Shown here piece after piece: positions 3,643 through 18,623 of a DNA stretch of 64,000 nt (its first letter is position 1; each line of letters begins with the position of its first letter). Source of the stretch: Actinomycetospora succinea (GTDB taxonomy: Bacteria; Actinomycetota; Actinomycetes; Mycobacteriales; Pseudonocardiaceae); assembly GCF_004363095.1 (NCBI RefSeq), contig NZ_SNYO01000001.1, forward strand, positions 124,001-188,000, read 5' to 3'. The translations under genes and the position numbers were made by a program. The notes beneath the pieces are model-generated. The model did not search any database. It worked only from the letters and a program-made list of their open reading frames with translations, and had not been told where the DNA came from.

Positions 3643-4703
3643 GTCGCGCGCAGCTGGTAGTCGCCGAGGCGCTCGTCCCACTCCATCGTCACGAGGTCGC
3701 GGGCGCGGGCGGCGCGGGCGAAGGACAGGAAGTTCGAGAACCCGTAGCGCTTCTCCGAGAACCCGGGCTCGCGCTTGCGGATCTGGTCCTTCAGCCCCGA
3801 GAGCTGGGGTGTGCCCAGCTCCCGCACGGTGCCCGCCAGCAGGGCGAACGCCTCGTCCTCGGCCGACGCGCCCTCGGGGAACGCGACCTCCGGGTCGCCC
3901 GCCGCCGTGCCAGGCGCGAGGGCGAGGACACCCCGGTTCTCGAGGTGGCGCAGGAGCTCGCCGAACCCGCGGAACCCCTGGTCGCCCTCGTCGAAGGTCG
4001 GGTCCTTGCGCAGGATCGCGCGCTTGAGGGTGGAGGCGCGCACGGGGCCGTCGGTGGCGCGTGCGAGGCCGGCGAGCGTGCTCGTGACGACGGCGGCGAG
4101 GTCGGGGTCGGAGGGGTCGGAGGTGTCCGGGGAGTCGTGGGTTTCCGGTTCGGGCTCCGGGGCGGGCTGGACGACGGGCGCCGCCGATCGGTGCCGCGCC
4201 GGCCGGGCGGGGACGGGCCGTCCCTCGACGCCGGGGAGGCGGTCGTAGAAGAGGAACTCGTCGCACGCCGCGGGCAGGAGCGCCGAGGTCGACGACTGCA
4301 CGCCGATGCCGATGACGCGCTTGTCCATCTCGCGCAGCTTGTGCATCAGCGGGGTGAAGTCGGAGTCGCCGGTGCCGATGGCGAACGTCGTCACGAACCC
4401 GCGCTCGTAGGCCAGCTCGATGGCGTCGACGGCCATCTTGATGTCGGCGGCGTTCTTGCGGGACCCGCCGATCCGCTGCGGAATCTCGATCAGCTCGACC
4501 TGCGCGCGGGCCAGCAGGCGGCGGTCCTCGTCGAACGCCGACCAGTCGCCGTAGGCCCGCCGCGTCACCACCCGGCCCCGCTCGGCCAGCGCGTCGGCGA
4601 CCGGCCCGAAGTCGAACGGGCTGACGCCGAGCCCGTCGCGGGCCCCGATCGCGAGGTTCTCGTAGTCGAGGAACAGGGCGATGCGTTCGTCCTCCGGAGC
4701 CAC
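3639..4703 (-). CDS. NYN-domain ribonuclease-like protein with OST-HTH/LOTUS domains
   Basis: The 354-residue protein begins with a NYN (PIN-like, LabA/DUF88) domain at 1-160. ALFLDYENLAIG, DIKMAVDAIELAY and GTGDSDFTPLM supply the acidic residues of the metal-dependent nuclease centre. A disordered Pro/Glu linker (about 168-198) follows, then two repeats resembling OST-HTH/LOTUS RNA-binding modules (about 200-275 and 285-354; GYRFSNFLSFARAA-like core in the second). The family is expected to cut or bind structured RNA, though targets are unknown. It heads the operon with the YraQ permease and is divergent from nicX. Confidence 0.82.
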   Translation of the reverse strand: MAPEDERIALFLDYENLAIGARDGLGVSPFDFGPVADALAERGRVVTRRAYGDWSAFDEDRRLLARAQVELIEIPQRIGGSRKNAADIKMAVDAIELAYERGFVTTFAIGTGDSDFTPLMHKLREMDKRVIGIGVQSSTSALLPAACDEFLFYDRLPGVEGRPVPARPARHRSAAPVVQPAPEPEPETHDSPDTSDPSDPDLAAVVTSTLAGLARATDGPVRASTLKRAILRKDPTFDEGDQGFRGFGELLRHLENRGVLALAPGTAAGDPEVAFPEGASAEDEAFALLAGTVRELGTPQLSGLKDQIRKREPGFSEKRYGFSNFLSFARAARARDLVTMEWDERLGDYQLRAT

Positions 4704-4785: not shown

Positions 4786-4814
4786 TTGCGTGCTCGGATA
4801 GTACGTGCTCGGAT
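4786..4814 (+). promoter_or_regulatory. nicX promoter with operator copy 1
   Basis: TTGCGT (4786-4791), a 17-bp spacer and TCGGAT (4809-4814) form a plausible -35/-10 pair. The 21-bp core CTCGGATAGTACGTGCTCGG-A (4793-4813) fills the spacer and -10. The same core, identical over 21 bases, lies before nicC, and a copy with one mismatch lies before marR. A repressor bound here would block RNA polymerase; the MarR protein at 16629-17153 is the obvious candidate. Confidence 0.7.
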
Positions 4815-4836
4815 TTAGCCTGGAGGTGGTCGACCG

Positions 4837-5883
4837 ATGGACCAGAACCTGTTCAACGACATCTGCTTGCAGCAGCTGAAGCTCTCCGGGGTGCACGAGG
4901 GCGAGACCGTCGCCGTGCTGACCCGGGGCGCGGACCGCGGGGAGTACGCCGACGCGTTCCTGTGGGCCGCCCAGCAGCTCGGTGCGGCGACCTTCCACCT
5001 GCGTCTGCCGCCGCCGGCGTCCGCGTCGGGCGCGTGGGCGGTGGGCGACTCGGGGCTGGGGAACATCCCGCTGGCCGTGGAGGCGCTCAAGTCGGTCGAC
5101 ATGCTCGTCGACTGCACGTTCCTGCTGTTCTCCCCCGAGCAGTTCGCGATCCAGGACGCCGGCACCCGCATCCTGACCGCGGTCGAGCCGCCCGAGCTGC
5201 TGGCCCGGCTGATGCCGACCACCGAGCTGCGCGAGCGCGTCGAGTACGGCGCCGACCTGCTGGCCAAGGCGCAGTCGATGCGCATCACCAGCCCCGCGGG
5301 CACCGACGTCACCTACCGGCTCGGGGTGTACCCGACGCTCTCGGAGTACGGCTACACCGACACCCCCGGGCGCTGGGACCACTGGCCGGCCGCGTTCGTG
5401 TTCACCGGCGGCGCCGACGACGGCGTCGACGGGCAGATCGTGCTCTCCCCGGGCGACGTGCTGCTGCCGTTCAACACCTACGTGCAGACGCCGGTCACGC
5501 TGACCATCGAGCAGGGCTTCATCCAAGACATCCGCAGCCAGAACGGTGGATTCAGCCTGGACGCCGAGCTGCTCTCGAGCTACATCAAGAGCTTCGACGA
5601 CCCCCGCGGCTACGGCATGTCCCACGTCGGCTGGGGTCTCGACGAGCGCGCCCACTGGCACGGCCTGACCCAGTTCCCGGGCGGCATGGGCATGGAGCTG
5701 CGCAGCTTCTACGGCAACGTCATGTTCTCGATCGGCCCGAACAACGAGCTCGGCGGCCCGAACGACACCCCGTGCCACTTCGACATCCCGATGCGCGGCA
5801 ACAGCCTGTTCCTGGACGACGAGCTCGTCGTGGACAAGGGTGAGCTGACCATCCCCGAGATGAAGCCTGTCGAGAAGCGATGA
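4837..5883 (+). CDS. nicX: 2,5-dihydroxypyridine 5,6-dioxygenase (NicX-like)
   Basis: The 348-residue protein has the fold signature and length of NicX, the Fe(II) enzyme that opens 2,5-dihydroxypyridine to N-formylmaleamate. MSHVGWG (His263) and CHFD (His314, Asp316) reproduce in order and spacing the His/His/Asp iron ligands known for Pseudomonas putida NicX (His265, His318, Asp320). The family is related to M29 aminopeptidases, so automatic annotation may call it a leucyl aminopeptidase. A GGAGG ribosome site sits about 10 bp before the ATG. The stop overlaps the maleate isomerase start (ATGA). The promoter carries operator copy 1. Confidence 0.88.
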   Translation: MDQNLFNDICLQQLKLSGVHEGETVAVLTRGADRGEYADAFLWAAQQLGAATFHLRLPPPASASGAWAVGDSGLGNIPLAVEALKSVDMLVDCTFLLFSPEQFAIQDAGTRILTAVEPPELLARLMPTTELRERVEYGADLLAKAQSMRITSPAGTDVTYRLGVYPTLSEYGYTDTPGRWDHWPAAFVFTGGADDGVDGQIVLSPGDVLLPFNTYVQTPVTLTIEQGFIQDIRSQNGGFSLDAELLSSYIKSFDDPRGYGMSHVGWGLDERAHWHGLTQFPGGMGMELRSFYGNVMFSIGPNNELGGPNDTPCHFDIPMRGNSLFLDDELVVDKGELTIPEMKPVEKR

Positions 5884-6662
5884 CCGATCACCACATCGGG
5901 ATGATCGTCCCGAGCTCCAACCTCACGATGGAGACCGAGCTGCCGCGGATGCTCGCCGCGCGCGAGCAGGCGATCCCCGACGACCGGTTCGTGTTCCACG
6001 CCGCCCGGGCGCGCATGCAGCACGTGACGCCCGAGCAGCTCAAGGCCATGAACGCCCAGGCCACCCGCGCGGCGACCGAGCTCGCCGACGCCCGCCCCGA
6101 CGTCGTCGCCACCGCCTGCCTGGTGGCGATCATGGCGCAGGGGCCCGGCTTCCACTGCACCGCCGAGGACGACATCACCGGCGCGCTGCGGGCCGAGGGC
6201 TCGCCGGCGCCGGTGGTCTCGTCGGCGGGCGCGCTGCTCTCGGGGATCGCGGCGCTGGGGGCGAAGCGGGTCGCCATCGTGACCCCGTACATGAAGCCGC
6301 TGACCCAGGCCGTCGTCGACTACATCGTCGACGCCGGTGTCGAGGTCGTCGACTCCCTGTCACTCGAGGTCCCCGACAACCTCGCGGTCGCCCGGCTCGA
6401 CCCCGCCGACCTGCGGGAGCACTACAAGAAGCTGGACGTGTCGAACGCCGACGCCCTGGTGCTCTCGGCGTGCGTGCAGATGCCGTCGCTGCCGTCGATC
6501 GAGGCCGTGCAGGACGAGGTCGGCCTCCCGGTGCTCTCCGCGGCGACGGCGACGACGTTCCGCATCCTGTCCTCGCTGGGCCTCGAGACCCGTGTGCCGG
6601 ACGCCGGCGCGCTGCTCTCGGGCTCAGTCGCCGACCCGGGTGACGTGACCCGAGCGGCTTGA
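5880..6662 (+). CDS. nicE: Maleate cis-trans isomerase (NicE-like)
   Basis: This 260-residue Asp/Glu-racemase-fold protein has its two catalytic cysteines visible: Cys80 in VATACLVAIM and Cys198 in VLSACVQMPS. They match the Cys pair of characterised maleate isomerases, which add to C2 of maleate and release fumarate. IGMIVPSSNLTMETE is the conserved N-terminal substrate loop. The ATG overlaps the nicX stop by four bases, so the two are coupled. The product, fumarate, is the last step of the nicotinate route and enters the TCA cycle. Arylmalonate decarboxylases share the fold, but the neighbours favour maleate. Confidence 0.87.
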   Translation: MTDHHIGMIVPSSNLTMETELPRMLAAREQAIPDDRFVFHAARARMQHVTPEQLKAMNAQATRAATELADARPDVVATACLVAIMAQGPGFHCTAEDDITGALRAEGSPAPVVSSAGALLSGIAALGAKRVAIVTPYMKPLTQAVVDYIVDAGVEVVDSLSLEVPDNLAVARLDPADLREHYKKLDVSNADALVLSACVQMPSLPSIEAVQDEVGLPVLSAATATTFRILSSLGLETRVPDAGALLSGSVADPGDVTRAA

Positions 6663-6666
6663 TCTG

Positions 6667-6710
6667 GCTCCCCTCCGGGCGGGCTTCCTCGGTCGCGCCC
6701 GGAGGGGAGC
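6667..6710 (+). terminator. Terminator after nicX-nicE
   Basis: GCTCCCCTCCGGGCG pairs with CGCCCGGAGGGGAGC (15-bp arms, 14-base loop) starting five bases after the nicE stop. It also faces the end of the convergent lower-GC gene at 6719. Confidence 0.75.
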
Positions 6711-6718
6711 GCTGACCG

Positions 6719-7495
6719 CTATGGACGAGGACGACGCTGAGCGATCGTGGCCGGAGGAATACGGCGACGGGACGGCTTCGGACTGGGCGGGTCGGGCGAC
6801 CTGCGTGCCGTCCGCGCCTGGTCGCGGTAATCGGCCATGTCGGCGTTGAACTCCCGAGCGTACGAGTCGAGTACGTAGGCCGAGCCGAGCGTCGCCACCT
6901 CATTCAGCACAGAGTCGGCGACGTCCAGTTCGTGACGGTGGTCGAAATGCTGGCGAGCGCGTAGTGCGAGTGTGCGGACGCGCAGTCGCCGCAGCTGGTC
7001 CGATGTCGCTTCCGGCAAGACATCTACGGCGCTCTGCAGCTCTGTTGAGCCTTCCGCACGCTTACCTGCGGCAAAGAGGAAGACGCCGTACGCCGAGCGG
7101 GCGCTGGATACAGCAACCGGTCCTTCACGCTTCGCAGCCTTGATCGAGCGTCGATGCATGCGGTCCGCTTGGGGGTGATCTTGCACGTAGTCGAGACACT
7201 CAGCCAGTATCGTCATCTCTCTGCTGCAGGACTGTCGATGGTTCAGACGAAGCCTCAGCGCCTGCCGGGAAAGGACCTCCTTGCGGTTCCGGTAGTTGAT
7301 CTCATCGAACTCACTGATGATCTCTTCATTTTCGTCCATCAGTCGATCGAACTCTCGATCAACTTTCGAGATCTCCTCGATGAGCTGCCCGAAGCGGGTC
7401 CTCTGGGTGAGCCTGGTCTGACGCACGCTGTTCCACGCGGAGAATGCGCTCACGACGACAGCGACGATGCTGATCACGATCGGTACGGCTTGCAT
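6719..7495 (-). CDS. Unknown membrane-anchored helical protein, lower GC, inside the nic island
   Basis: I do not recognise this protein. From the ATG at 7495 it is 258 residues. An N-terminal hydrophobic segment (about 4-19, VPIVISIVAVVVSAFSAW) is followed by a long charged helical region (KVDREFDRLMDENEEIIS, probable coiled coil) and TPR-like helices, ending in a basic Pro/Ser tail. G+C is visibly lower than its neighbours and codon use is more mixed (TCG, AAG, GAA, ATT are common), which suggests recent acquisition. It separates nicX-nicE from nicD-nicF and has no evident link to nicotinate. An in-frame GTG/ATG further upstream at 7627 would add a Pro/Arg-rich stretch and is less likely. 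Confidence 0.6.
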   Translation of the reverse strand: MQAVPIVISIVAVVVSAFSAWNSVRQTRLTQRTRFGQLIEEISKVDREFDRLMDENEEIISEFDEINYRNRKEVLSRQALRLRLNHRQSCSREMTILAECLDYVQDHPQADRMHRRSIKAAKREGPVAVSSARSAYGVFLFAAGKRAEGSTELQSAVDVLPEATSDQLRRLRVRTLALRARQHFDHRHELDVADSVLNEVATLGSAYVLDSYAREFNADMADYRDQARTARRSPDPPSPKPSRRRIPPATIAQRRPRP

Positions 7496-7651
7496 ACCTC
7501 GGACACCCCCACCAAGTACCTCGGCCCGCCAGCCTAAGTCTGCTGGCGGAGGACCCGTCGCTTGCGGCAGGGTGGCTCGATCCCTTCGGGTTGGCGTCCG
7601 TCTCACGCGTCGGATCAACAACGCCATGCCATCGCCGAGTGCTTCGTAGGC

Positions 7652-8500
7652 TCAGAGCAGCGCGCGCAGGGTCTCGCGGGTCGCGGCGAGCGCGGCCGCG
7701 GGGTCGTCCCAGAAGACCATGTGGCCGGTGCCCGGGACCTCGATGACCGTCGCCTCCGGGTTGGCCTTCGCCGCCTCCTCCGCGCCGGCGGCGGTGACGA
7801 CGGGGCTGTCGCCGCCGTGGACGAGCACGGTCGGGGCGGGGACCGAGGGCCAGGTCGCGAAGAAGTCCTCGGACTCGAAGCCCGCGTGGGTCGCGATGAC
7901 CGCGTCGCGCGAGATCGAGCTCATCCAGTGGGCGCGGAGCTCCTGCTCGCGGCGGGGCCAGCGGGGCCAGGACGCGGCGACCTCGTCGGCGTCGGTGCCC
8001 CGGCGCGCCTGGTCGAGCTGCCCGAGGAACGCGTCGAGCGTCGTGGGGTAGGGGCCGCGGCCGGGGCCGCTCATCGGCGGGTCGACGAGCACGGTGCCGC
8101 GCAGGTCGAGGCGGGTGGCGGCGACGGCGGTGATCCGCGCGCCCATCGAGTGCCCGAGCACGAGCGGGCGCTCGAGGCCGAGCCCGTCGATCACCGCGGC
8201 GACGTCGGCGGCGTAGGTGTCGAGGTCCCAGGCGTCCCCGCTGTCGGAGAACCCGCGCCCGCGGACGTCGAGGACCAGCGGGCGGACGAGGTCGGTGAGC
8301 TCGCGGGCGACGAAGTCCATGGCGATCGCCGGGCTCGTGATCCCCGGGACGATCAGCAGTGGCACGCCGTCGACGGGGCCGTGGTCGAGGACGTGCAGGC
8401 GCACCTCGCCGGAACGCACCCAGCGGCTCACCGCCGCGGTCTCGGCGAGGTCGGCGAGCGCGGGCTGGGTCAGGACGCGCTGTGTGGCGGGTTCGGTCAC
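7652..8500 (-). CDS. nicD: N-formylmaleamate deformylase (NicD-like alpha/beta hydrolase)
   Basis: This 282-residue alpha/beta hydrolase has the nucleophile elbow LGHSMGAR (Ser118), the acid in VLVDPPMSGPGRGPYP (Asp140) and the base in GTGHMVFWDDP (His260). The spacing between Ser, Asp and His closely follows P. putida NicD, which removes the formyl group from N-formylmaleamate to give maleamate and formate. The PPMSGPGR stretch after Asp140 is typical of NicD rather than of generic hydrolases. The GTG start overlaps the nicF stop (GTGA). It is the last gene of the long hydroxylase operon. Confidence 0.85.
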   Translation of the reverse strand: MTEPATQRVLTQPALADLAETAAVSRWVRSGEVRLHVLDHGPVDGVPLLIVPGITSPAIAMDFVARELTDLVRPLVLDVRGRGFSDSGDAWDLDTYAADVAAVIDGLGLERPLVLGHSMGARITAVAATRLDLRGTVLVDPPMSGPGRGPYPTTLDAFLGQLDQARRGTDADEVAASWPRWPRREQELRAHWMSSISRDAVIATHAGFESEDFFATWPSVPAPTVLVHGGDSPVVTAAGAEEAAKANPEATVIEVPGTGHMVFWDDPAAALAATRETLRALL

Positions 8501-9168
8501 CGATCGGCCTTCCGGAAGGGGTCGTCGAGGTAGTTCACGGCGTCGTCGAGGGCGACGACGTCGGCGTACTTGGCCTGGAGGTCGTAGAGCGCGGCGTCGT
8601 GCGGGCCGCGGGCGCGGTCGCCGCAGGCGTCGGCGACGACGAGGGTGTCGAAGCCGCACTGCACCGCGTCGACGGCGGTGGCGCGCACGCAGCCGGACGT
8701 CGTGGCGCCGCAGATCACCGCGGTGTCGACGTGCAGGCCCGTGAGGAGCGCGGCGAGCGACGACCCGTGGAACGCCGAGGCGCCCTTCTTGAGGATCAGG
8801 TGGTCGTCGGGGGCCAGGCCGAGGCGCGCGTCGAGGGCGACGGCGTCGCTGCCCTCCCGCAGCGCGCGCACGCCCGGGGCCTTGCGCAGCCAGGCGACGG
8901 CGTCCCCGTCGGCCTCCGCGGCGGTGAACGAGACGGCGGTGGCGATCACCGGGACGTCGCGGTCGTGGGCGACCTCGACGAGCCGGGCCGCGGCGGCGAC
9001 CTCCGCGGTCAGGTCGGCGCCCAGCGGGAAGTCGGGCTCGGTGAACCCGCGCGTGAGGTCGACGACGACCAGCGCCGGGCGCGGCCCGCGGGGGACCGTG
9101 GCGCCGAAGCCGGCGCGGTCGTAGACGGCGGCGGTCTCGGCGCCGTGCAGGGTCTCGTCAGCGGTCAC
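8497..9168 (-). CDS. nicF: Maleamate amidohydrolase (NicF-like cysteine hydrolase)
   Basis: The 223-residue protein belongs to the isochorismatase-like amidase family. The triad is visible: Asp37 in VVVDLTRGF, Lys127 or Lys128 in LILKKGASAF, and Cys160 in ICGATTSGCVRATAVDA, with the cis-peptide just before the cysteine. NicF hydrolyses maleamate to maleate and ammonia. N-carbamoylsarcosine amidases look similar, but the neighbours nicD and nicX decide the call. The GTG start lies inside the last codons of the CoxG-like gene (11-bp overlap). Confidence 0.85.
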   Translation of the reverse strand: MTADETLHGAETAAVYDRAGFGATVPRGPRPALVVVDLTRGFTEPDFPLGADLTAEVAAAARLVEVAHDRDVPVIATAVSFTAAEADGDAVAWLRKAPGVRALREGSDAVALDARLGLAPDDHLILKKGASAFHGSSLAALLTGLHVDTAVICGATTSGCVRATAVDAVQCGFDTLVVADACGDRARGPHDAALYDLQAKYADVVALDDAVNYLDDPFRKADR

Positions 9169-9873
9169 GGTGTCGCAGCTCCTCGATCAGCATCTTCTGG
9201 CCGCGCAGGCGGCCCCACAGGTAGCCCTGGACGACGCCGACCAGGGCGGCGCCGGCGAGTGCGGCCCAGCGGCCGGCGTTCGGGGGCAGGAGCATGGCGA
9301 GCCCGTCGAGGGAATCCCCGCTCGGCGTGTCGCGATCCGAGGATGTGGCCCTATCGGCGTGCTCCCCTCGATCTGGCGTCAAAGACGCCAGCGATGCCGC
9401 ATCGCTCGCACCGGAGGTGCCCGACCCACCCGAGCCGGACGAGAGCTCGCCGGCGAGGTTGCGGGCGAACTGGTCGAGCAGGCGGCTCGAGACCGTCGTG
9501 ATCGCGCCCTTGCCGAACTGCGCGATCTTGCCGCGGATGAGCAGGTCGGTGTGCAGGTCGAGGGTCGAGCCGCCGTCGGCCTCGGCGACCGAGAGCACGA
9601 CGTCGGCCTCCGCGTCGCCGGCGCCGTGGGCGTCCGAGGCGCGCGCCGACAGGCGCAGCGTGCGCTGGTCCGGCACGACCTCGGTGAAGCGCAGCGTGCC
9701 CGCGTAGGCGGCGCTGATCGGGCCGACCTTGACCTTCACGCGTCCCCGGTACGCCTCGCCCTCACGGCCCTCGAGCGTCGCGCCCGGCAGGCAGCCGGCG
9801 ACGCGCTCGACGTCGTTGAGCAGCGCGAACACCGCGTCCGGCGCGGCCGGCACCGCGAGGTGGTTGTCCAGGA

Positions 9874-9877
<4 letters not shown>
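9158..9877 (-). CDS. CoxG-like SRPBCC protein with C-terminal membrane anchor
   Basis: This is a 239-residue protein. Residues 1-145 are a CoxG/SRPBCC domain (VAGCLPGATLEG, GRVKVKVGPISAAYAGT, then AEADVVLSV). A low-complexity linker at about 146-190 follows and a membrane segment at 203-222. CoxG proteins recruit or mature molybdenum hydroxylases at the membrane, so this one probably anchors the nicotinate hydroxylase. About 30 linker residues (156-188, starting GASDAASLAS) are encoded by a copy of a dispersed DNA repeat also found near 38 kb. The GTG at 9877 has AGGAGG seven bases upstream and overlaps the iron-sulfur subunit stop. Confidence 0.82.
9384..9411. repeat. Dispersed repeat family 1, copy inside the coxG-like gene
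   Basis: These 28 bases (start GACGCCAGCGATGCCGCATC) are identical to 38010-38037. The match continues upstream in weaker form (GGCGTGTCGCG and GATGTGGC are shared with 37971-37998). The core contains the hairpin AGCGATG-CCG-CATCGCT. Here it lies in frame in the protein linker. Confidence 0.75.
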
Positions 9878-10361
<484 letters not shown>

Positions 10362-10365
<4 letters not shown>

Positions 10366-12755
10366 AGCTCCTCCAGGGCGTCGGCCACCACCCGGGGGTG
10401 GATCGGCGTGGTGTCGAGCTCGACGCCGGTGCGGCGCAGCGCGTCGTTGACGGCGTTGAGCACCGCGGCGGGCGCCCCGATCGTCCCGCCCTCGCCGGCG
10501 CCCTTGGCCCCGTTCTCGGTGAACGCGCACGGCGTCTCGAGGTGCGCGATCGACACGTCGGGGATCTCGGTCGCGGTCGGCACCAGGTAGTCGATGAACG
10601 ATGCCGCCGACGGCTCGCCGTGCGCGTCGTACGTGACCTCCTCGAACAGCGCGCCCGCGATGCCCTGCGCGATCCCGCCGCGGCACTGCCCGTCCACGAC
10701 CTTCGGGTGGATCACGACGCCGCAGTCCTCGACGCACGCGTAGCGCAGGATGCGGATCGCGCCCGTGCCCGGGTCGGCCTCGACCACGACGGCGTGCGTG
10801 GCGTTCGAGAACGTCCCGTCGCCGGGGACGTCGAAGCTGGCGGTGGCGGTGAGCGCCGGCTCGACGTCCTTGGGCAGCAGGTGGCTGCGCAGGTAGGCGA
10901 CGTCGGCGATCTCCTCGTACGACAGCCGCCGCGACGGGTCGTCGAGCTGCACGACCCCGCCGTCGCCGTCCATCGCGACGTTCTCCGGGCGCGTCTCGAG
11001 CAGGTGCGCGGCGATCCGGCACAGCAGCTCGCCGAGCCGCTCGGAGGCGAGCGCGACGGCCGAGCCACCGATCGTCACCGACCGCGACGCGAACGTGCCC
11101 CACCCGTAGGCGATGCGCTCGGTGTCGCCCTGGCGCAGCTTGACGCGGGCGACGTCGATGCCGAGCCGGTCGGCGACGATCTGCGCGAACGTCGTCTCGT
11201 GCGACTGGCCGTGGTTCATCGTGCCGCTGGTGACGACCACCGCGCCGGTGGTGTCCATCCGGATCTCGGAGAGGTCGAAGCCCGGGACCACGGTCATCTT
11301 CCGCTTGGCGAACGCCTCCGACCCGTAGCCGGTGCGCTCGGAGAAGCAGCAGAAGCCGATGCCGATGTGCCGCTCACCCGCGTCGCGCAGCTCGTACCAG
11401 CCCTCGTCGCGGATGGTCTTCTCGGCGAGGTCGAGCGACTCCCGGTAGGTGCCGGGGTCGTAGGTGACGGCATTGACGCCGGTGTACGGGAACTCGGTGA
11501 TGACGTTGCGCCGGCGCACCTCGACCGGGTCCAGGCCCAGCTCGCGGGCGGCGCGCTCCATGACCCGCTCGATCGCCATCACGTACTGCGGGCGGCTGAC
11601 CCCGCGGTACGGGGCGGTCGGGGCCTTGTTGCTGGTCAGCGCCCGGCCGCGCACCCGGTAGGCGGGCACGCGGTAGACGCTCGGCATCTCCGCGGACGCC
11701 ATCAGCGGCTCGATGCCCGCGGTGAAGGGGTAGCAGGAGTAGGCGCCCATGTCGCAGACGACGTCGACGTCGAGCGCGGCGATGTGGCCGTCGGCGTCGA
11801 ACGCCGCGCGCGTGCGGTAGGTCTGCTCGCGGGCCAGGAACCCGGCGGTCAGGGCCTCGCGCCGGTCCTCGATCCACTTCACGGGACGGTGCAGCCGGTG
11901 CGCCACGGCCGCCACGGCGACCTCCTCGCGCCCGACCACGCACTTCTGCCCGAAGCCGCCGCCCATGTCCGGGACGGTCACGCGGATCGTGCGCTCGGGG
12001 ACGTCCAGGCAGCGGGCGACGAGCGTGCGGACCTGGTGGGGGACCTGGGTGCACGTCTGCACGAGCAGCTGGTCGTCGCGGGCGTCCCACGACGCGACGA
12101 CGCCGCGGGTCTCGAGCGGGAGCGCGTTCTGCCGGCCGCTGCGGGTGGTGACCTCGACGGTGACGTCCGCGTCCTCGAAGGCCTCGTCCACACCTGGCGT
12201 GTCGAACATCGACACGTCGAGCAGCACGTTGCCGGCCGCCTCGTCGTGGACCAGCGGGGCGTCGGCCGCGAAGCCGCTCTCCTCGTCGACCACCACGGCG
12301 AGCGACTCGTGCTCCACCACCGCGGCCTCGATGCCGTCCTCGACGGCGTACGGGTCGCGCGCGAGGACAATCGCCAGCGGCTCGCCGACGAACCGGACCT
12401 TGTCCTTGGCGAGGATCGGCATCGCCGTCGGCGTGAACTCCTCGGCGGGCCGGTCGAGCAGGGCGACGATGTCGCCGAGCGCCAGGTCGCGCGCGTCGTA
12501 GGCGGCGATGACCCCGCTGACCGCGCGGGTGGCGGTCAGGTCGATCGCGGTGACGTGCGCGTGCGCGACGGTCGCGCGCACGAAGCCCGCGTGCAGCATC
12601 CCGGGCAGGGCGATGTCGTCGACGAAGCGTCCGCGCCCGGTGAGCAGGCGCGGGTCCTCGTGGCGGGGGATCGAGGCGCCGACCCAGCGGCCCCTGCGGC
12701 TCTCGAAGTGGGGCTCGGAGGCCGTGACCTCGGTCGGCAGGTCCGTGGCCGTCAT
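10362..12755 (-). CDS. Molybdenum hydroxylase large (molybdopterin) subunit, probable nicotinate hydroxylase
   Basis: This 797-residue protein belongs to the xanthine dehydrogenase/CoxL family. GRGRFVDDIALPGMLH opens the N-terminal a/b hammerhead domain. Cofactor-binding motifs GGGFGQK and PYRGVSRPQ, and the catalytic glutamate in GAGEGGTIGAP (about Glu755), are all present. The CoxL active-site CSFR loop is absent, arguing against CO oxidation. In this cluster the expected reaction is nicotinate to 6-hydroxynicotinate. Unlike the NicAB enzyme of P. putida, it is accompanied by a FAD subunit. ATG 12755 overlaps the FAD-subunit stop. Xanthine or another N-heterocycle remains possible as substrate. 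Confidence 0.85.
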
Positions 12756-13621
12756 CGCGCAGCCTCCCGACAGGCGTCCGCCACGAGCGTGCGCGTCAGA
12801 CGCCGGCGGTAGGCGGCGGTGGTGCCCTCGTCCTCCGGGGGATCGATCGCCGCGGCGGCCGCCTCGGCGACCGCGGTCCACAGCGTGTCCCCGGCCTCGC
12901 CGTGCAGTGCATCCTCGGCCTCGGGCACCCGGACCGGGGCCGGCGCGACGCCGCCGAGGACGACGCGCCCGCCGGTGACGATGGTGGAGTCGCTGTCGGA
13001 CAGGTCGAGCGCGACGGCCGCGTCGACGATCGCGAAGTCCCCGTGGCGGCGGGCGAACTCGCACAGCGCGGCGTGCGGCGCGGGCCGGGTGAAGCGGACC
13101 TCGACGACGACCTCGTCCGGGTCGACGGCGGTGGCGTAGAAGCCGTGGAACAGCTCGTCGGCGGGGATCTCGCGGCGCCCGGACGGGCCCTCGGCAACGA
13201 CGACGGCGTCGAGGAGCAGGGCGAGCAGGCACCACTCGGCGGTCGCGTCGCCGTGCACGAGGCTGCCGGCGACCGTGCCGCGGCTGCGGATCGGCAGGTG
13301 CCCGACCCAGCGCATGGCGCGCGAGAGCACCGCCCACTCGCGGGGGAGCGCCGCGGTCTCCACGGCGTGGTGGGTGACCAGGGCGCCGAGCGTCAGCACC
13401 CCGTCGGACACGTCGATCGCCGTCATCGACGGCACCCGGCGCAGCGGGCCGAGGTCGACGAGCGCGGTCGGCCGGGCGAGCCGGAAGTTCATCATCGGCA
13501 TGAGGCTCTGCCCGCCCGCGATGACCTTGGGGTCCTCGCCCGCCGCGGCGAGGTCGGTGAGCAGCGCGACGGCGTCGGCGACGTCGTGCGCGCGGTGGTA
13601 GGTGAACGCGGCGGGCTTCAT
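12752..13621 (-). CDS. Molybdenum hydroxylase FAD subunit
   Basis: This 289-residue CoxM-type flavoprotein carries the FAD motifs VIAGGQSLMPMMNFRLARP (residues about 33-51) and IRSRGTVAGSLVHGDATAEW (about 112-131), followed by the CO-dehydrogenase-flavoprotein C-terminal domain. It hands electrons from the [2Fe-2S] clusters to the final acceptor. It is the first gene of the unit FAD-Mo-FeS-CoxG-NicF-NicD, all coupled by short overlaps. The preceding 104 bp contain a terminator hairpin and no recognisable copy of the 21-bp operator, so its promoter is unclear. Confidence 0.88.
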   Translation of the reverse strand: MKPAAFTYHRAHDVADAVALLTDLAAAGEDPKVIAGGQSLMPMMNFRLARPTALVDLGPLRRVPSMTAIDVSDGVLTLGALVTHHAVETAALPREWAVLSRAMRWVGHLPIRSRGTVAGSLVHGDATAEWCLLALLLDAVVVAEGPSGRREIPADELFHGFYATAVDPDEVVVEVRFTRPAPHAALCEFARRHGDFAIVDAAVALDLSDSDSTIVTGGRVVLGGVAPAPVRVPEAEDALHGEAGDTLWTAVAEAAAAAIDPPEDEGTTAAYRRRLTRTLVADACREAAR

Positions 13622-13660
13622 GGGCCCCGCGCCTCCTCTCGGGAGCGGCTCGAGGATCCG

Positions 13661-13707
13661 GCGAAGGGCACCCGCGGCCGGTCTGGCTGACCGAAGGTGC
13701 CCTTCGC
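13661..13707 (-). terminator. Hairpin between the MFS gene and the hydroxylase operon
   Basis: GCGAAGGGCACC pairs with GGTGCCCTTCGC (12-bp arms, 23-base loop). It lies just after the stop of the upstream permease gene and 40 bp before the FAD-subunit ATG, so it should end or attenuate transcription arriving from nicC. Confidence 0.65.
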
Positions 13708-13725
13708 TCGGAACGGGTGGTGCGG

Positions 13726-15132
13726 TCAGGCCGTGGTGCGCTCGGTGCCGGTGGACTCGACGGCCGGGCTGTCCGGCACGTCGGTGGTGATCCGGTCGAG
13801 CTCGCGGCCCGCGGTCTCCGGCGCGCCGACCCACATGAAGACCACCGCGCCGACGACCAGCACGCCGAGCAGGGTGAAGGTCAGGGGCAGGCCCAGCACC
13901 GGCCAGAGCACGCTGCCGAACAGCAGCGGGGCGAAGCCGGTGATCGCGCGGCTCGACGACGACGCCCAGCCGAAGCCCGAGGCGCGCAGCTCGGTCGGGT
14001 AGAGCTCCGAGACGTAGGCGTACATGACCGGGATGACGATCAGCGCGAAGAGGCCGAAGGCCCCGATGGCGACGATCGCGAGGGTCGGCGTGCCCAGCAG
14101 CAGCGAGAACAGGACCAGGGTCGCCGCGGCGACCGGACCGGCGATCGCGATGACGCGCTTGCGGCCGTAGCGGTCGACGACGAGCACCGAGATGGCGACA
14201 CCGACGATGCCGAGCGCGTTCATCAGCGTGGTCGAGGCGAAGGCCGCGATCTCGCCGAAGCCCTGGGCCTTGAGGATCGAGGGCATCCAGCTCAGGGCGG
14301 CGTAGTACACGAGCATCACGGCGATGAACAGCGACCAGGCGACGGCGGTGATCTTCGGGTTGAAGGCCCAGACGCGGCGCAGCTGGTCGACGGCCGCGGC
14401 CCACGCCCCGCCGCGCTTGTCCTCGACGACCGGCTCGGGGATGACGTAGGGCTCCGGGGCGGCGCCGGTGCGGGTGACCATGTCGTCGATGACGGCGCGG
14501 GCCTCGGTCTCGCGGCCCATGCGGGAGAGGTAGAGCGGCGACTCGGGCACCCCGCGGCGGATCCAGAACAGCAGGAGCGCCGGCAGGATCATCAGCACGA
14601 GCATCCAGCGCCAGTTGCCCTCGACGGGCACGAGCAGCGTCGCCGAGACGCCGGCGAGCGTGGCGCCGATCGGCCACCAGCCGTCCATCGCGGCGAGCAC
14701 GCGGCCGCGCTGCTTCTTCGGCGAGAACTCGCTGACGATCGCGTAGTCGACCGGGATACAGCCGCCGAGGCCGACGCCGGCGAGGAAGCGCAGCAGCAGG
14801 AAGACCTCGATGTTCGGCGAGAACGCCCCGAACACCGAGAACAGCGCGAAGACCAGCAGGGTGATGCTGAAGGCCTTCTTGCGCCCGATCCGGTCGGCGA
14901 CCGTGCCCCAGGCGACGGCGCCGACGGCCATGCCGATGAGGTTGGCGGTGGCGACGAGGCCGCGCTGGGCCGGCGAGAGCCCGAACTCGGTGCCGATCAG
15001 CGGGGTGAGGAACCCGTTGAGGGCGACGTCCCAGGCGTCGAACATGTAGCCGAGGCCGCCGATGAGGAAAATCTTGCCTTGGACGCCCCAGCGCCAGGGA
15101 AGGTCCTGGACGATCTGGTCTCCGGTGCGCAT
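13726..15132 (-). CDS. MFS transporter, probable nicotinate/aromatic acid permease
   Basis: The 468-residue protein has twelve hydrophobic segments and the sugar/aromatic-acid MFS motifs: GTVADRIGRKKA after TM2, RFLAGVGLGG in TM4, PESPLYL before the central loop and VDRYGRKR in the second half. FDAWDVALNGFLTPLI in TM1 resembles the DxxD region of aromatic-acid:H+ symporters and NiaP. Its place between nicC and the hydroxylase genes suggests proton-coupled uptake of nicotinate. ATG 15132 has GGGAG ten bases upstream. It probably shares a transcript with nicC (47-bp gap). Confidence 0.82.
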   Translation of the reverse strand: MRTGDQIVQDLPWRWGVQGKIFLIGGLGYMFDAWDVALNGFLTPLIGTEFGLSPAQRGLVATANLIGMAVGAVAWGTVADRIGRKKAFSITLLVFALFSVFGAFSPNIEVFLLLRFLAGVGLGGCIPVDYAIVSEFSPKKQRGRVLAAMDGWWPIGATLAGVSATLLVPVEGNWRWMLVLMILPALLLFWIRRGVPESPLYLSRMGRETEARAVIDDMVTRTGAAPEPYVIPEPVVEDKRGGAWAAAVDQLRRVWAFNPKITAVAWSLFIAVMLVYYAALSWMPSILKAQGFGEIAAFASTTLMNALGIVGVAISVLVVDRYGRKRVIAIAGPVAAATLVLFSLLLGTPTLAIVAIGAFGLFALIVIPVMYAYVSELYPTELRASGFGWASSSSRAITGFAPLLFGSVLWPVLGLPLTFTLLGVLVVGAVVFMWVGAPETAGRELDRITTDVPDSPAVESTGTERTTA

Positions 15133-15179
15133 GTGTTCGCTCCCGTCGCGGGTGGTGGGGGTTCTCGTCGGTCCGCGCG

Positions 15180-16448
15180 TCAGCGGGCGAACTGGTAGTG
15201 GATGGACTCGGTGTCGTGGTCGTGCAGCGGGCTGCCGTTCCACAGCCAGTCGTAGGAGACGTCCGACTCGCCGTCGAAACGGCGCAGCTTGTCGTCGCGC
15301 TCGCGCTGCTCGGGGCCGTCGGGCAGGTGGTAGAACGCCATGTTCTGCAGCGAGGCGTCCTGGACCATGCCGGCGTGCTTGGCCCGGCGGTCGACGTAGC
15401 GCACGAGGGCGCCGTCGATGTCGTCGCGCGTCACCCGGCCCAGCTCCTCGGCGAGCACCGCGGCGTCCTCCATCGACTGCGAGGCGCCCTGGGCCTGGTA
15501 GGGGAGCATGGCGTGGCAGGCGTCGCCGAGCAGCGCGACCCGGCCGTCGACCCACACCGGGTCGCGGCGGCGGCGGTACATCGCCCAGAGCGAGACGTCC
15601 TCGGGCTTGGCCTTGGAGAGCACGGTCGGCACGCGGTCGTCCCAGTCGGCGAAGTCCGCGGCGAGCTGGTCGGGGGTCGCGGGGCCGCTCCAGTCGCGCT
15701 CGATGGTGTCCGAGCACGGGACGATCGCGACGACGTTGAGGTACTGGCCGCCGCGGATGACGTAGTGCACGAGGTGCTTGTCCGGGCCGTACCAGATGGT
15801 CGAGTGGTAGCGGTCCATGAGGAAGCGGGTCGCCGGGTCCGCGGCGACGAGCTCGCCGGGGATGAGCGCGCGGTAGGCCATCTCGCCCGAGAAGACCAGG
15901 GAGTCCTCGAAGCCCGCGAGGTCGCGGACCGCGGAGCGGATGCCGTCGGCGCCGATCAGCACGTCGCCGGCGAAGCGGCGGCCGTCCTCGGCGACCGCGA
16001 CGGGACGCGTCGGGTCGGTGCGGTCGAGCTCGACGACCTTGGCGCCGGTGTGCAGGGCGACGACCGGGCCGGGGCCCTCGGGGTCGGCGCACGCGTCGAG
16101 CAGGACGCGGTGCAGGTCGGCGCGGTGGTAGTGCCAGTACGGGGCGCCGTACTGGTCGATCACCCGCTGCCCGAGGGGGAGCTGGGCGATGATGCTGCCG
16201 TCGGCCCAGCGGCGCCGGACCTGGTCCTCGGGCTGCGTGCGGATCGCCTCGAGCTGGGCGCGCAGCCCGAGCCCGATGAGGATGCGGCTGGCGTTCGGCG
16301 CGGTCTGGATGCCGGCGCCGATCTCGCCGAGCTCGGGCGCGGCCTCGACGACGGTGACGCGCGTGCCGCGCTGGCGGAGCGACAGCGCGGCGCAGAGACC
16401 GCCCAGCCCTCCTCCGACGATGGTGACCTCGAACGACTGGCTCGCCAT
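15180..16448 (-). CDS. nicC: 6-hydroxynicotinate 3-monooxygenase (NicC-like flavoprotein)
   Basis: This 422-residue class A flavin monooxygenase has GGGLGGLCAAL for FAD at the N-terminus, GADGIRSAVRD (DG motif) near 160, and ALLGDACHAMLPYQAQGA (GD motif) near 305. Family members include salicylate hydroxylases and NicC. NicC decarboxylates and hydroxylates 6-hydroxynicotinate to 2,5-dihydroxypyridine with NADH and O2. The cluster contains the enzymes before and after this step, which supports NicC. The ATG at 16448 is preceded by GGGAGG, and operator copy 2 lies 45 bp upstream. The longer in-frame extension to 16571 would run through that operator and is rejected. Confidence 0.84.
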   Translation of the reverse strand: MASQSFEVTIVGGGLGGLCAALSLRQRGTRVTVVEAAPELGEIGAGIQTAPNASRILIGLGLRAQLEAIRTQPEDQVRRRWADGSIIAQLPLGQRVIDQYGAPYWHYHRADLHRVLLDACADPEGPGPVVALHTGAKVVELDRTDPTRPVAVAEDGRRFAGDVLIGADGIRSAVRDLAGFEDSLVFSGEMAYRALIPGELVAADPATRFLMDRYHSTIWYGPDKHLVHYVIRGGQYLNVVAIVPCSDTIERDWSGPATPDQLAADFADWDDRVPTVLSKAKPEDVSLWAMYRRRRDPVWVDGRVALLGDACHAMLPYQAQGASQSMEDAAVLAEELGRVTRDDIDGALVRYVDRRAKHAGMVQDASLQNMAFYHLPDGPEQRERDDKLRRFDGESDVSYDWLWNGSPLHDHDTESIHYQFAR

Positions 16449-16491
16449 CTGGCCGCCCTCCCGGTGTGGTGCTCGCGTTCGGCTGCGTTCA

Positions 16492-16520
16492 ATCCGAGCA
16501 CGTACTATCCGAGGACGCAA
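16492..16520 (-). promoter_or_regulatory. nicC promoter with operator copy 2
   Basis: Read on the - strand, TTGCGT (16520-16515), 17 bp, then TCGGAT (16497-16492) repeat the nicX promoter almost base for base. The 21-bp core at 16493-16513 is identical to operator copy 1 in reverse orientation, matching the orientation of nicC. A small hairpin CGTGTC-CCGA-GACACG at 16529-16544 may terminate marR. Confidence 0.7.
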
Positions 16521-16628
16521 TAGGTTGACGTGTCCCGAGACACGGCCGTAACAGATCGCAGGCGGGCGCATGCTCCGTTCAGGCTACGGAGGAGGGCCCG
16601 CAGCCGACGGTCGTTGCTCCCTGTGCGA

Positions 16629-17153
16629 TCAGAGCTCGGCGCGCTCGGCGACCTGCTCCCACTGCTGCCCGAGGTCGTTGAACAGCGACGCCAGGTGCGG
16701 GCGCTGCTCGGGCGGGCAGCCGGCGAGCAGGGCCTCGTCGAGCGCGCGGGCGCGCCGGTTGGTCTCCGCGAGCGCCTCGGCGCCCTCGTCGGTGAGGGTC
16801 AGGACCTTCGCCCGCGCGTCGTGCGGGGCCTCGTGGCGCGCGATCAGCCCGCGCCGCTCCATGCGCCGGCAGACGTCGGCCATCGTCGAGGTGTCCAGGG
16901 CGACCGCGCTGGCCAGCGACGTCTGGTCGGCGTCCGGGTAGGCGCGCACGGCGGAGAGCACCGCGAACTGCGGGCCGGTGAGCACCGAGTCGACGTGCCG
17001 GCTCCACGCGGCGAGGTAGGCCTGGTAGAGCCGCCGGGCGCCGTAGCCGGGCGCGGCGACCAGGTCGGCCGGGGGGTCGAGGCGCACGCGGCGCCGGCTG
17101 GTGTCCTTGCTCGCCACCGCTCTCGTGTCTGCCGCTCTCGTCACCGCGTCCAC
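16629..17153 (-). CDS. MarR-family regulator of the nicotinate cluster
   Basis: The 174-residue protein has the MarR layout. Helices about 40-60 precede a winged helix-turn-helix at about 66-120 (LTGPQFAVLSAVRA, then SLASAVALDTSTMADVCRRMERRGLI), and the wing carries ARAKVLTLT. In P. putida the MarR protein NicR represses the nic genes and responds to 6-hydroxynicotinate. This gene sits within the cluster between two copies of the 21-bp operator, one of them before its own start, so autoregulation and control of nicC and nicX are likely. The GTG at 17153 or one at 17145 could be the start. Confidence 0.82.
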   Translation of the reverse strand: MDAVTRAADTRAVASKDTSRRRVRLDPPADLVAAPGYGARRLYQAYLAAWSRHVDSVLTGPQFAVLSAVRAYPDADQTSLASAVALDTSTMADVCRRMERRGLIARHEAPHDARAKVLTLTDEGAEALAETNRRARALDEALLAGCPPEQRPHLASLFNDLGQQWEQVAERAEL

Positions 17154-17197
17154 CCCGTCCGTCGCGCCCCCGGTGACCCTCGGGTCACTCCCCGCTC

Positions 17198-17218
17198 CTC
17201 GGATAATACGTGCTCGGA
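17198..17218. promoter_or_regulatory. Operator copy 3 before marR
   Basis: CTCGGATAATACGTGCTCGG-A differs from copies 1 and 2 at one base (G to A at position 9). On the - strand that change creates TATTAT, a good -10 hexamer for marR, whose start is 45-50 bp downstream. Confidence 0.65.
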
Positions 17219-17243
17219 ACGAATCGGGGGGTGACGTGAAGGG

Positions 17244-18623
17244 TCAGTCCACGGCCTCGAGCGTGAGCCCGGTGCTGCGCGGGCCGAGGATGCCGACGTC
17301 GAGGCAGAGCAGCAGGATCATGAACGCCGCGCCGCCGAACACGGCGACCGGGCCCGCCGTGGCCAGCAGGGGCACGGCGACGAACGGCATGACCACCGAC
17401 GTCGCCCGCGAGAGCGAGTAGGCCACGCCGCTCGCCGTCGAGCGGATCGAGGTCGGGAAGATCTCCGCCTGGTAGATGTGGAACGCGTTCGAGAAGATGT
17501 TGCTCGCCGAGGTCAGCAGGAAGCCGGCCAGCACGATCAGCCACACCGCCGACGCCGCGGCGAAGACGATGCCGAGCACGGCGATGGCGATCGCCGAGCC
17601 GACGATCAGCCACTTGCGCTCGAAGCGCTCCACCAGCGGCACCGAGATCAGCGAGCCGATCGGGTAGCCGAAGAAGGTCAGCGCGGCGTAGCCCAGCGAC
17701 TCGGTGACCTCGAAGCCCTTGCTGACCAGCACGAGCGGGGCGAGCGTGCCGAAGCCGTAGTAGGCGATGGTCTGGAGCACCTGGAAGATCAGCAGCATGA
17801 TCATCCGCTGGCGGTAGGTGCCGGTCAGCGCCGTGCGCAGGACGTCGACGGTCGAGCGCTTCTCGGGCTCGGCCGGTCCGGCGCGCGGGACCTCCTCGGG
17901 GGAGACCGGCCGCCCGACCTTCGCGGCGATCGTCCGGGCGACCTCCACCGCCTCGTCGTCGCGTCCCTGCGACTCCAGCCAGCGCGGCGACTCCGGGAGC
18001 ACCCGGCGCAGAACCAGCACGAACACCGCGCCGAGCCCGCCGGCGATGAGCAGCCAGCGCCACCCGTCGATCCCGAGGATCTGCGCCGAGGCGACGAGCT
18101 TGCCGCCGAGCAGCGCGGCCACCGGGACGCCGAGGAAGCCGACCGTGTACGCCCACGCCGTGTACCGCCCGCGGGCGTGGGCGGGCAGGAACTCGGCGAG
18201 GTAGGTGTCGACGAGCACCAGCTCCGCGCCCAGCCCGATCCCGGCGAGGAAGCGCAGGACGAGGAACCACCCGATGTCGGGCGAGAACGCCGCGGCCAGC
18301 GAGAACAGCGAGTACGTCAGCAGGTTGAGCAGGAACACCCGCCGGCGCCCGATGCGGTCGGCGAGCACCGACAGCACGTTCGCGCCGACGAACATCCCGA
18401 GGAACCCGCTGGCGACGACCGCGGCCTTGCCCGCGGACCCCAGCGAGAACTCCTTGGCGAGGATCGGGGCCAGCACCCCGCCGAGGAACACCTCGTACAG
18501 ATCGAAGAACGAGCCGATCCCGACCAGCACGACCAGGCGGCGGTGCCACCCCGCGAGGGGCAGCCGCTCGAGGATCGCGCCGGCCGGGCTCGTCGGCTCC
18601 GTTGCCCCTGTCGAGACCGCCAT
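17244..18623 (-). CDS. Second MFS transporter of the NiaP/sugar-porter type
   Basis: This 459-residue twelve-helix permease is a paralogue of the one at 13726. It has FFDLYEVFLGG in TM1, SVLADRIGRRRV after TM2, RFLAGIGLGAEL in TM4 and PESPRWLES before the central loop. The Asp-Glu pair in TM1 and the Glu in TM4 resemble NiaP nicotinate carriers. It lies directly upstream of marR and in the same direction, so it may take up nicotinate or export a pathway intermediate. Its start region contains an inverted repeat (18672-18692) that differs from the nic operator, suggesting separate control. Confidence 0.78.
   Translation of the reverse strand: MAVSTGATEPTSPAGAILERLPLAGWHRRLVVLVGIGSFFDLYEVFLGGVLAPILAKEFSLGSAGKAAVVASGFLGMFVGANVLSVLADRIGRRRVFLLNLLTYSLFSLAAAFSPDIGWFLVLRFLAGIGLGAELVLVDTYLAEFLPAHARGRYTAWAYTVGFLGVPVAALLGGKLVASAQILGIDGWRWLLIAGGLGAVFVLVLRRVLPESPRWLESQGRDDEAVEVARTIAAKVGRPVSPEEVPRAGPAEPEKRSTVDVLRTALTGTYRQRMIMLLIFQVLQTIAYYGFGTLAPLVLVSKGFEVTESLGYAALTFFGYPIGSLISVPLVERFERKWLIVGSAIAIAVLGIVFAAASAVWLIVLAGFLLTSASNIFSNAFHIYQAEIFPTSIRSTASGVAYSLSRATSVVMPFVAVPLLATAGPVAVFGGAAFMILLLCLDVGILGPRSTGLTLEAVD

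Follow-up and report, generated by a model that had tools for sequence, protein, structure and literature searches.

Nicotinate breakdown through maleamate is known from the nic cluster of Pseudomonas putida, which comprises NicAB, NicC, NicX, NicD, NicF, NicE and NicR. Molybdenum (Mo) hydroxylases of the family concerned attack next to the ring nitrogen, and nicotinate thereby gives 6-hydroxynicotinate. The annotated cluster of Mesorhizobium loti combines a large molybdopterin protein, a 2Fe-2S protein, a MarR regulator and a monooxygenase with an alpha/beta hydrolase, a racemase-family protein, an amidohydrolase and NicX, the last labelled leucyl aminopeptidase. Among the matches listed in open-access PMC, judged by title and the start of the abstract, we found no paper on an actinobacterial nicotinate-to-maleamate cluster; an actinobacterial nicotine cluster is the subject of PMC10494377. 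Here we describe a gene island in a 64-kb stretch of Actinomycetospora succinea DNA (contig NZ_SNYO01000001.1, positions 124,001 to 188,000; hereafter the window, whose numbering we use), which forms part of one contig of a 6.47-Mb genome in 23 contigs. We consider it highly likely that the island is a dedicated nicotinate-to-fumarate regulon under MarR control, with an upper half that is neither NicAB nor NicC. The original prediction, made from the letters of the window, had proposed a route from nicotinate through 2,5-dihydroxypyridine and maleamate to fumarate, and lower-pathway homology, linkage and operators make this the best supported reading. The surprise lies in the replaced upper half and not in the presence of the pathway.

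The island consists of two converging transcription units (Table 1). On the forward strand nicX is followed by the maleate isomerase gene, and the reverse-strand unit holds, in order of transcription, marR, the flavin monooxygenase (FMO) gene, MFS1, the genes of the medium, large and small hydroxylase subunits (M, L and S), coxG, nicF and nicD. NCBIfam and Pfam profile scans of 13 island open reading frames (ORFs) gave NicX no family and the other proteins mostly broad families, and we therefore used sequence matches in the PDB and gene clusters. The genes named in the original prediction all exist at the positions it had given, with the catalytic residues it had claimed for NicX, NicD, NicF and maleate isomerase; its list had overlooked the CoxG-like gene.

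The sole PDB match of NicX at E <= 0.001 was the 2,5-dihydroxypyridine 5,6-dioxygenase 7cn3, a full-length homologue in which H265, H318 and D320, which we take to be the iron ligands, align with H263, H314 and D316 of NicX. Among the matches listed, its closest relatives were from Actinomycetospora (91-96% identity, L030-L038). The best solved matches of NicD, NicF and the isomerase were likewise pathway enzymes. Those of NicD and NicF carry generic PDB names ('Deformylase' for 4l0c and 'Hydrolase, isochorismatase family' for 4l07) and are presumably the N-formylmaleamate deformylase and maleamate amidase of P. putida S16. S118, D140 and H260 of NicD presumably form the catalytic triad, and the position of NicF C160 is Ala in the 4l08 chain. 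NicD and NicF were each 41% identical to their M. loti counterparts, and the maleate isomerase was 53% identical to the isomerases of the Pantoea and M. loti clusters. By homology to known enzymes, the predicted functions of NicX, NicD, NicF and maleate isomerase, i.e. the lower four steps, can be assigned securely.

The hydroxylase contains the 2Fe-2S, FAD and Mo cofactor domains of the xanthine oxidase family, and L carries a GAGEG motif whose Glu we take to be the active-site residue. The nearest solved structure to L was quinoline 2-oxidoreductase (1t3q). L was also 40% identical to the large subunit, and S 54% identical to the 2Fe-2S part of a protein, in a Variovorax cluster (L119) that we call picolinate-type because it holds Rieske oxygenase and amidohydrolase genes. 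NicAB enzymes have two subunits, a 2Fe-2S one and a large one with cytochrome c motifs, whereas the CXXCH motif was found in none of L, M, S and CoxG; the NicB proteins of M. loti and Pantoea carry three each. Judged by its sequence, the hydroxylase is a heme-free three-subunit FAD/Fe-S/Mo enzyme and no orthologue of NicAB. By analogy, the CoxG-like protein is probably its membrane anchor. Among related Mo enzymes, PMC11962113 reports anchoring by CoxG for CO dehydrogenase and puts it forward for 3-hydroxypyridine dehydrogenase.

The FMO had been labelled NicC in the original prediction, a label that orthology does not support. Its top solved matches were decarboxylative vanillate 1-hydroxylase 8x38 (E 2.5e-77), the unnamed FAD protein 8r2t and 8gsm, named '4-hydroxybenzoate decarboxylase' in the PDB and presumably of fungal origin, with P. 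putida NicC (5eow) behind them (E 5.6e-48). The FMO was 37-41% identical to 8x38 and 8gsm and 30.4% identical to 5eow. We built a tree of 27 rows from the NicC proteins of Pantoea (identified by its best match 5eow, E 2.6e-190), M. loti, Agrobacterium, Roseomonas, Rhizobium and P. putida, other FMOs and three further PDB chains. The six NicC rows formed one clade (100/100) that did not include the window FMO; eleven actinobacterial NicX-linked FMOs formed a separate clade (100/99), joined to 8x38 and 8gsm at 96/93. A long-branch warning included 8x38 and 8gsm and the exact sister group of the actinobacterial FMOs is unsure, but their exclusion from the NicC clade is independent of that join. 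At NicC positions H47, C202, H211, Y215 and H302, a list that we take to be the active site, the window FMO has Q, S, H, Y and Y. H211 and Y215 are thus kept, yet both are present in all 27 rows of the tree, and a Gln at position 47 also occurs in the 8uiq chain of NicC. Tree and residues place the FMO in the decarboxylative 1-hydroxylase lineage and not among the orthologues of NicC; 6-hydroxynicotinate would be its substrate. A Rhodococcus opacus gene annotated as 6-hydroxynicotinate 3-monooxygenase (L132:2983-4131), also outside the NicC clade, has genes for hydroxyquinol 1,2-dioxygenase and maleylacetate reductase next to it; its annotation is probably wrong.

Near-identical 26-bp sequences were found at 4789-4814 and 16492-16517 (mean of 0.00 in 100 shuffles). 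When the 22-bp operator CTCGGATAGTACGTGCTCGGAT was searched with up to 3 mismatches, the 6.47-Mb genome contained three copies, all of them in the island (4793-4814, 16492-16513 and 17198-17219, before nicX, the FMO gene and marR), and the reversed control gave 0. The two oppositely facing units with separate operators that had been predicted are thereby confirmed and extended to three operators, the one at marR being new. The regulator has the winged-helix domain of the MarR family and homology to MarR proteins; we infer that it would bind all three sites, with probable autoregulation of marR through the third. For BpsR, PMC6837509 names Tyr15, His23, Arg26 and His32, and Arg26 binds the carboxylate of 6-hydroxynicotinate. 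R40 of the window MarR aligned with this Arg, which is kept in 33 of 33 relatives having a residue there, and Tyr15 fell outside the alignment. Orthology with BpsR was considered and is weakened by Tyr at two ligand His positions, so that the BpsR-type residue set is incomplete. The window MarR is nevertheless predicted, from the kept Arg, to sense 6-hydroxynicotinate.

To place the island among related clusters, we examined the best 80 of 143 NicX relatives in genome contigs and sorted their loci by gene content, calling type 1 those in which L scored over 500 bits or the FMO exceeded 60% identity; 54 were type 1, 16 type 2 and 10 unsorted. Type-1 loci came from Actinomycetospora, Amycolatopsis, Saccharopolyspora, Pseudonocardia, Prauserella, Saccharomonospora, Saccharothrix, Actinomadura, Nonomuraea, Nocardiopsis and Modestobacter, and all eight enzyme genes lay inside the fetched stretch in 42 of the 54. 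Over the 80 loci, FMO passed its threshold in 48, L in 52 and both in 46; six loci had L and no FMO in the fetched stretch (a flank of <=10 kb or a short contig), and their FMO may lie beyond it. The order FMO, hydroxylase, NicF, NicD was shared across many species. Within the genus FMO is patchy, being found in 11 of 18 genomes, and NicX was found in 11 of 150 genomes of the order (own genome included in both counts). Searches of the whole phylum, with 396 genomes for each protein, sampled it too thinly and gave FMO in 1 (own genome only, E <= 1e-120), NicX in 4 (E <= 1e-120) and L in 6 (E <= 1e-200).

The dyad before nicX recurred in L030-L038 and L041, and at the FMO and marR promoters it occupied equivalent places in 8/8 congeneric loci. 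When we scanned for T[AC][CA]GTG[TC][TC]CGGA within ~180 bp of nicX, it was present in 39/54 type-1, 0/16 type-2 and 6/10 unsorted loci, whereas 4000 windows drawn at random from these loci contained it 38 times; anywhere in the stretch it was found in 51/54 type-1 loci. Fifteen type-1 loci have no dyad close to nicX; in 9 of them the FMO operon includes nicX, placed after nicD. Three type-1 clusters had no dyad (L101, L102 and L085; two from Nocardiopsis and one from a Pseudonocardia metagenome-assembled genome), and regulation may differ there. Sharing of the operator by proteobacterial nic clusters was not supported, the strict TCCG-N4-CGGA being absent from 6/7 loci; the seventh (L117) had two such sites (16664 and 18647), both outside its nic genes.

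Type-2 loci (L076, L057, L073, L082, L088, L090 and others) carry a different three-subunit Mo enzyme, and PPDK_N and PEP-utiliser proteins occurred in 13/16 of them and in 0/54 type-1 loci. The order in L076 is NicF, PEP-utiliser, PPDK_N, hydroxylase M, CoxG-like, NicD, NicX, S, L, isomerase. By analogy, type 2 looks like 3-hydroxypyridine catabolism, the 3-hydroxypyridine dehydrogenase of Ensifer reportedly having PEP-type components. A four-component 3-hydroxypyridine dehydrogenase of Ensifer appears as a title in the reference list of PMC11962113. P. parietis, P. kunmingensis, P. acidicola and A. echigonensis each have clusters of both types, which suggests that the choice of substrate lies with the upper module and not with the lower one. 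A replicon of Embleya carried FMO (72% identity), L (71%), S (72%), M (59%), CoxG (54%), NicF (66%), NicD (63%), isomerase (71%) and MarR (61%), with the operator dyad before nicX; MFS1 was not detected at this locus, and the NicX-family gene was only 37% identical. The upper module thus accompanies a 2,5-dihydroxypyridine-type dioxygenase even when the gene differs.

Some clusters had other compositions. In L079 and L086 (Nonomuraea and Streptomyces) only NicX, isomerase, NicF and NicD were detected. The Actinomadura rubrisoli cluster (L072:96-11787) had FMO and the lower pathway, with Rieske-oxygenase-like and reductase-like matches upstream and no Mo hydroxylase detected. An Azospirillum cluster (L114:6973-11613) joined a monooxygenase of a third clade, with Gln at position 47, to NicX, NicD, NicF, isomerase and an ABC transporter; no Mo hydroxylase was found within the 21 kb in view, and a 5-hydroxypicolinate or 6-hydroxynicotinate pathway is possible there.

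MFS1 was present in 45 of the 54 type-1 loci and is probably, from its family, a nicotinate importer. Both MFS carriers listed in the original prediction are present in the window, but MFS2, upstream of marR, is not conserved: a 91.5% identical copy stood upstream of marR in one of eight congeneric loci, and none was found within ~3.4 kb upstream of marR in the other seven. MFS2 is accessory and no conserved part of the island. For the ORF between the converging units, neither NCBIfam nor Pfam gave a family, and tblastn against 90 loci found nothing at E < 1e-3. The divergent neighbour of nicX on the reverse strand (3639-4703) has an N-terminus that resembles, judged by eye, an NYN-domain protein; it was detected in 9 of the 80 NicX loci, every one Actinomycetospora. 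The GC content was 72.3% in the island and 75.8% in the remaining window.

Table 1. Features of the island, in window coordinates.
Feature	Position	Strand	Matches and remarks
Operator upstream of nicX	4793-4814	+	direct repeat CGTGCTCGGAT, 15-bp spacing; contains conserved dyad TACGTGCTCGGA
nicX, predicted 2,5-dihydroxypyridine 5,6-dioxygenase	4837-5883	+	7cn3 E 1.5e-88; H263, H314, D316
Predicted maleate cis-trans isomerase	5880-6662	+	4fq7 E 1.7e-75; 2xec E 6.6e-64; C80, C198
ORF, 302 amino acids, between the two converging units	6719-7627	-	coding status uncertain
nicD, predicted N-formylmaleamate deformylase	7652-8500	-	4l0c E 2.4e-43 (best PDB match); S118, D140, H260
nicF, predicted maleamate amidohydrolase	8497-9168	-	4l07 E 6.3e-58 (best PDB match); D37, K127/K128, C160
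CoxG-like protein, hydrophobic C-terminal stretch	9158-9877	-	Pfam COXG E 2.7e-17
Hydroxylase small subunit S, two [2Fe-2S] domains	9874-10365	-	Pfam Fer2, Fer2_2
Hydroxylase large subunit L, Mo cofactor	10362-12755	-	1t3q E 1.8e-158; GAGEG at 753
Hydroxylase medium subunit M, FAD	12752-13621	-	Pfam FAD_binding_5, CO_deh_flav_C
MFS1, aromatic-acid/H+ symporter type	13726-15132	-	TIGR00895 E 8.7e-71, below its cut-off
FMO (group A), predicted 6-hydroxynicotinate decarboxylative 3-hydroxylase	15180-16448	-	8x38 E 2.5e-77
Operator of the monooxygenase operon	16492-16517	-	
MarR-family repressor	16629-17153	-	PcaV 4fht E 4.3e-21; HosA 8aga; BpsR 6pcp E 8.7e-12
Third operator, at the marR promoter	17198-17219	+	2 mismatches
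MFS2, second aromatic-acid type MFS carrier	17244-18623	-	NCBIfam/Pfam scans

In the route that we propose, MFS1 would import nicotinate, and the Mo/Fe-S/FAD hydroxylase, which CoxG probably tethers to the membrane, would convert it to 6-hydroxynicotinate by attack next to the ring nitrogen. The FMO would then replace the carboxylate by a hydroxyl group to give 2,5-dihydroxypyridine, which NicX would open to N-formylmaleamate. NicD would remove formate, NicF would remove ammonia and maleate isomerase would yield fumarate. The MarR repressor would occupy the three operators and leave them on binding a hydroxylated pyridine carboxylate, for which 6-hydroxynicotinate is the likeliest candidate. 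We regard nicotinate-to-fumarate as the most economical reading because nicotinate becomes 2,5-dihydroxypyridine through a Mo hydroxylase that attacks next to the nitrogen and then a decarboxylative para-hydroxylase. The upper steps find support in 1t3q, whose name points to oxidation beside a ring nitrogen, and in the decarboxylative relatives of the FMO, whose reaction type is the one needed on 6-hydroxynicotinate. For steps one and two, the claim of a candidate gene for every step therefore rests on chemistry and context rather than on orthology.

Several observations weigh against this route. Across the aligned actinobacterial FMOs, NicC H47 is replaced by Q in 51/51, C202 by S in 50/51 and H302 by Y in 51/51, and the FMO clusters with benzenoid-acid enzymes in the tree. 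The nearest relatives of the hydroxylase act on quinoline or, by context, on picolinate and not on nicotinate, and L066 as well as L072 have FMO without a detected L. The counts of L and FMO within the 54 type-1 loci are partly circular, since either of the two sufficed to make a locus type 1. On the regulatory side, BpsR ligand residues H23 and H32 are both Tyr in the window MarR, 15/54 type-1 loci lack the dyad directly before nicX and 3/54 lack it in the whole stretch, and the actinobacterial dyad was absent from the 7/7 proteobacterial loci scanned.

The position of the FMO outside the NicC clade leaves room for entry through another pyridine carboxylate, e.g. 5-hydroxypicolinate, which an HpaM-type reaction converts to 2,5-dihydroxypyridine by para-decarboxylative hydroxylation, or for 6-hydroxynicotinate supplied from elsewhere while the Mo enzyme attacks some other N-heterocycle. 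The FMO of L072 without a detected L would fit such an entry, as would the Azospirillum pairing of a different Q47 monooxygenase with NicX, NicD, NicF and isomerase and no hydroxylase within 21 kb. However, the Azospirillum monooxygenase belongs to another clade, L is present in 46 of the 48 loci with FMO, and the attack of Mo hydroxylases next to the ring nitrogen would provide the needed 6-hydroxynicotinate from nicotinate; we consider this explanation unlikely. It is very improbable that the FMO serves benzenoid acids, turning 4-hydroxybenzoate or vanillate into hydroquinones, and merely adjoins a 2,5-dihydroxypyridine pathway. Its nearest solved relatives do act on such acids by their PDB names and the clade support is 96/93, but the FMO and nicX carry the same operator, the FMO is ordered with the hydroxylase, NicF and NicD in many species, and the matches of the 13 island ORFs scanned included no hydroquinone-cleavage family.

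The broad composition of the island (three-subunit Mo hydroxylase, flavin monooxygenase, lower pathway) resembles that of the nicotine-type route of P. putida S16, in which 3-succinoylpyridine is hydroxylated and HspB cleaves the side chain to give 2,5-dihydroxypyridine, and the best solved match of NicD is the 'Deformylase' 4l0c. The FMO, however, matched HspB (7da9) at E 1.4e-8 over partial length, compared with 2.5e-77 for 8x38 and 5.6e-48 for NicC, and an HspB-like cleavage has a minimal chance of being the entry step. Catabolism of picolinate or 3-hydroxypyridine is just as remote. The identities of S (54%) and L (40%) to the Variovorax subunits would suit picolinate, but the Variovorax cluster relies on a Rieske oxygenase and an amidohydrolase, domains that were found in none of the 13 island ORFs scanned; the PPDK/PEP-utiliser pair expected for 3-hydroxypyridine was absent from the same ORFs and from 54/54 type-1 loci.

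Actinobacteria probably assembled their upper nicotinate catabolism independently of Proteobacteria, with a CoxG-anchored hydroxylase in place of NicAB and a benzenoid-lineage FMO in place of NicC, a single MarR regulon linking both to a 2,5-dihydroxypyridine-to-fumarate module that these bacteria also combine with other pyridine entry modules. If this is true, various soil actinobacteria carry out two of the six steps of a textbook pathway with non-orthologous enzymes, and annotation that relies on resemblance to NicAB and NicC would for that reason miss or mislabel the upper enzymes. The '6-hydroxynicotinate 3-monooxygenase' of R. opacus indicates that a label alone is a poor guide. The FMO, with Gln at position 47, would be a natural case in which to test how a decarboxylative hydroxylase for benzenoid acids turns into a pyridine enzyme, and the compact three-operator regulon might find use in Amycolatopsis or Saccharopolyspora as a switch that responds to nicotinate.

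Among the known systems, 8x38 and 8gsm are the closest named solved relatives of the FMO and, like it, have Q and Y in place of H47 and H302 of NicC, but by their PDB names they take benzenoid acids, and their identity to the FMO stays at 37-41%. The hydroxylases 1t3q and L119 are related three-subunit Mo enzymes; their operon context differs, and L119 fuses the 2Fe-2S and CoxG-like parts in one ORF. BpsR and PcaV align with the window MarR over the ligand helix, and the carboxylate-binding Arg of BpsR is kept, whereas its two ligand His are not. The rhizobial nic cluster of M. loti (L110) has a NicX 71% identical to that of the window, compared with only 46% for Pantoea NicX; on the other hand, this cluster and that of Agrobacterium (L116) contain NicAB-like genes and NicC-clade monooxygenases. 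With the nic cluster of P. putida the island shares the predicted overall route, the resemblance of NicX to 7cn3 and of the isomerase to 4fq7, and control by a MarR protein. It differs in that the NicAB type is replaced by a three-subunit FAD enzyme without CXXCH, and NicC by a monooxygenase of another clade.

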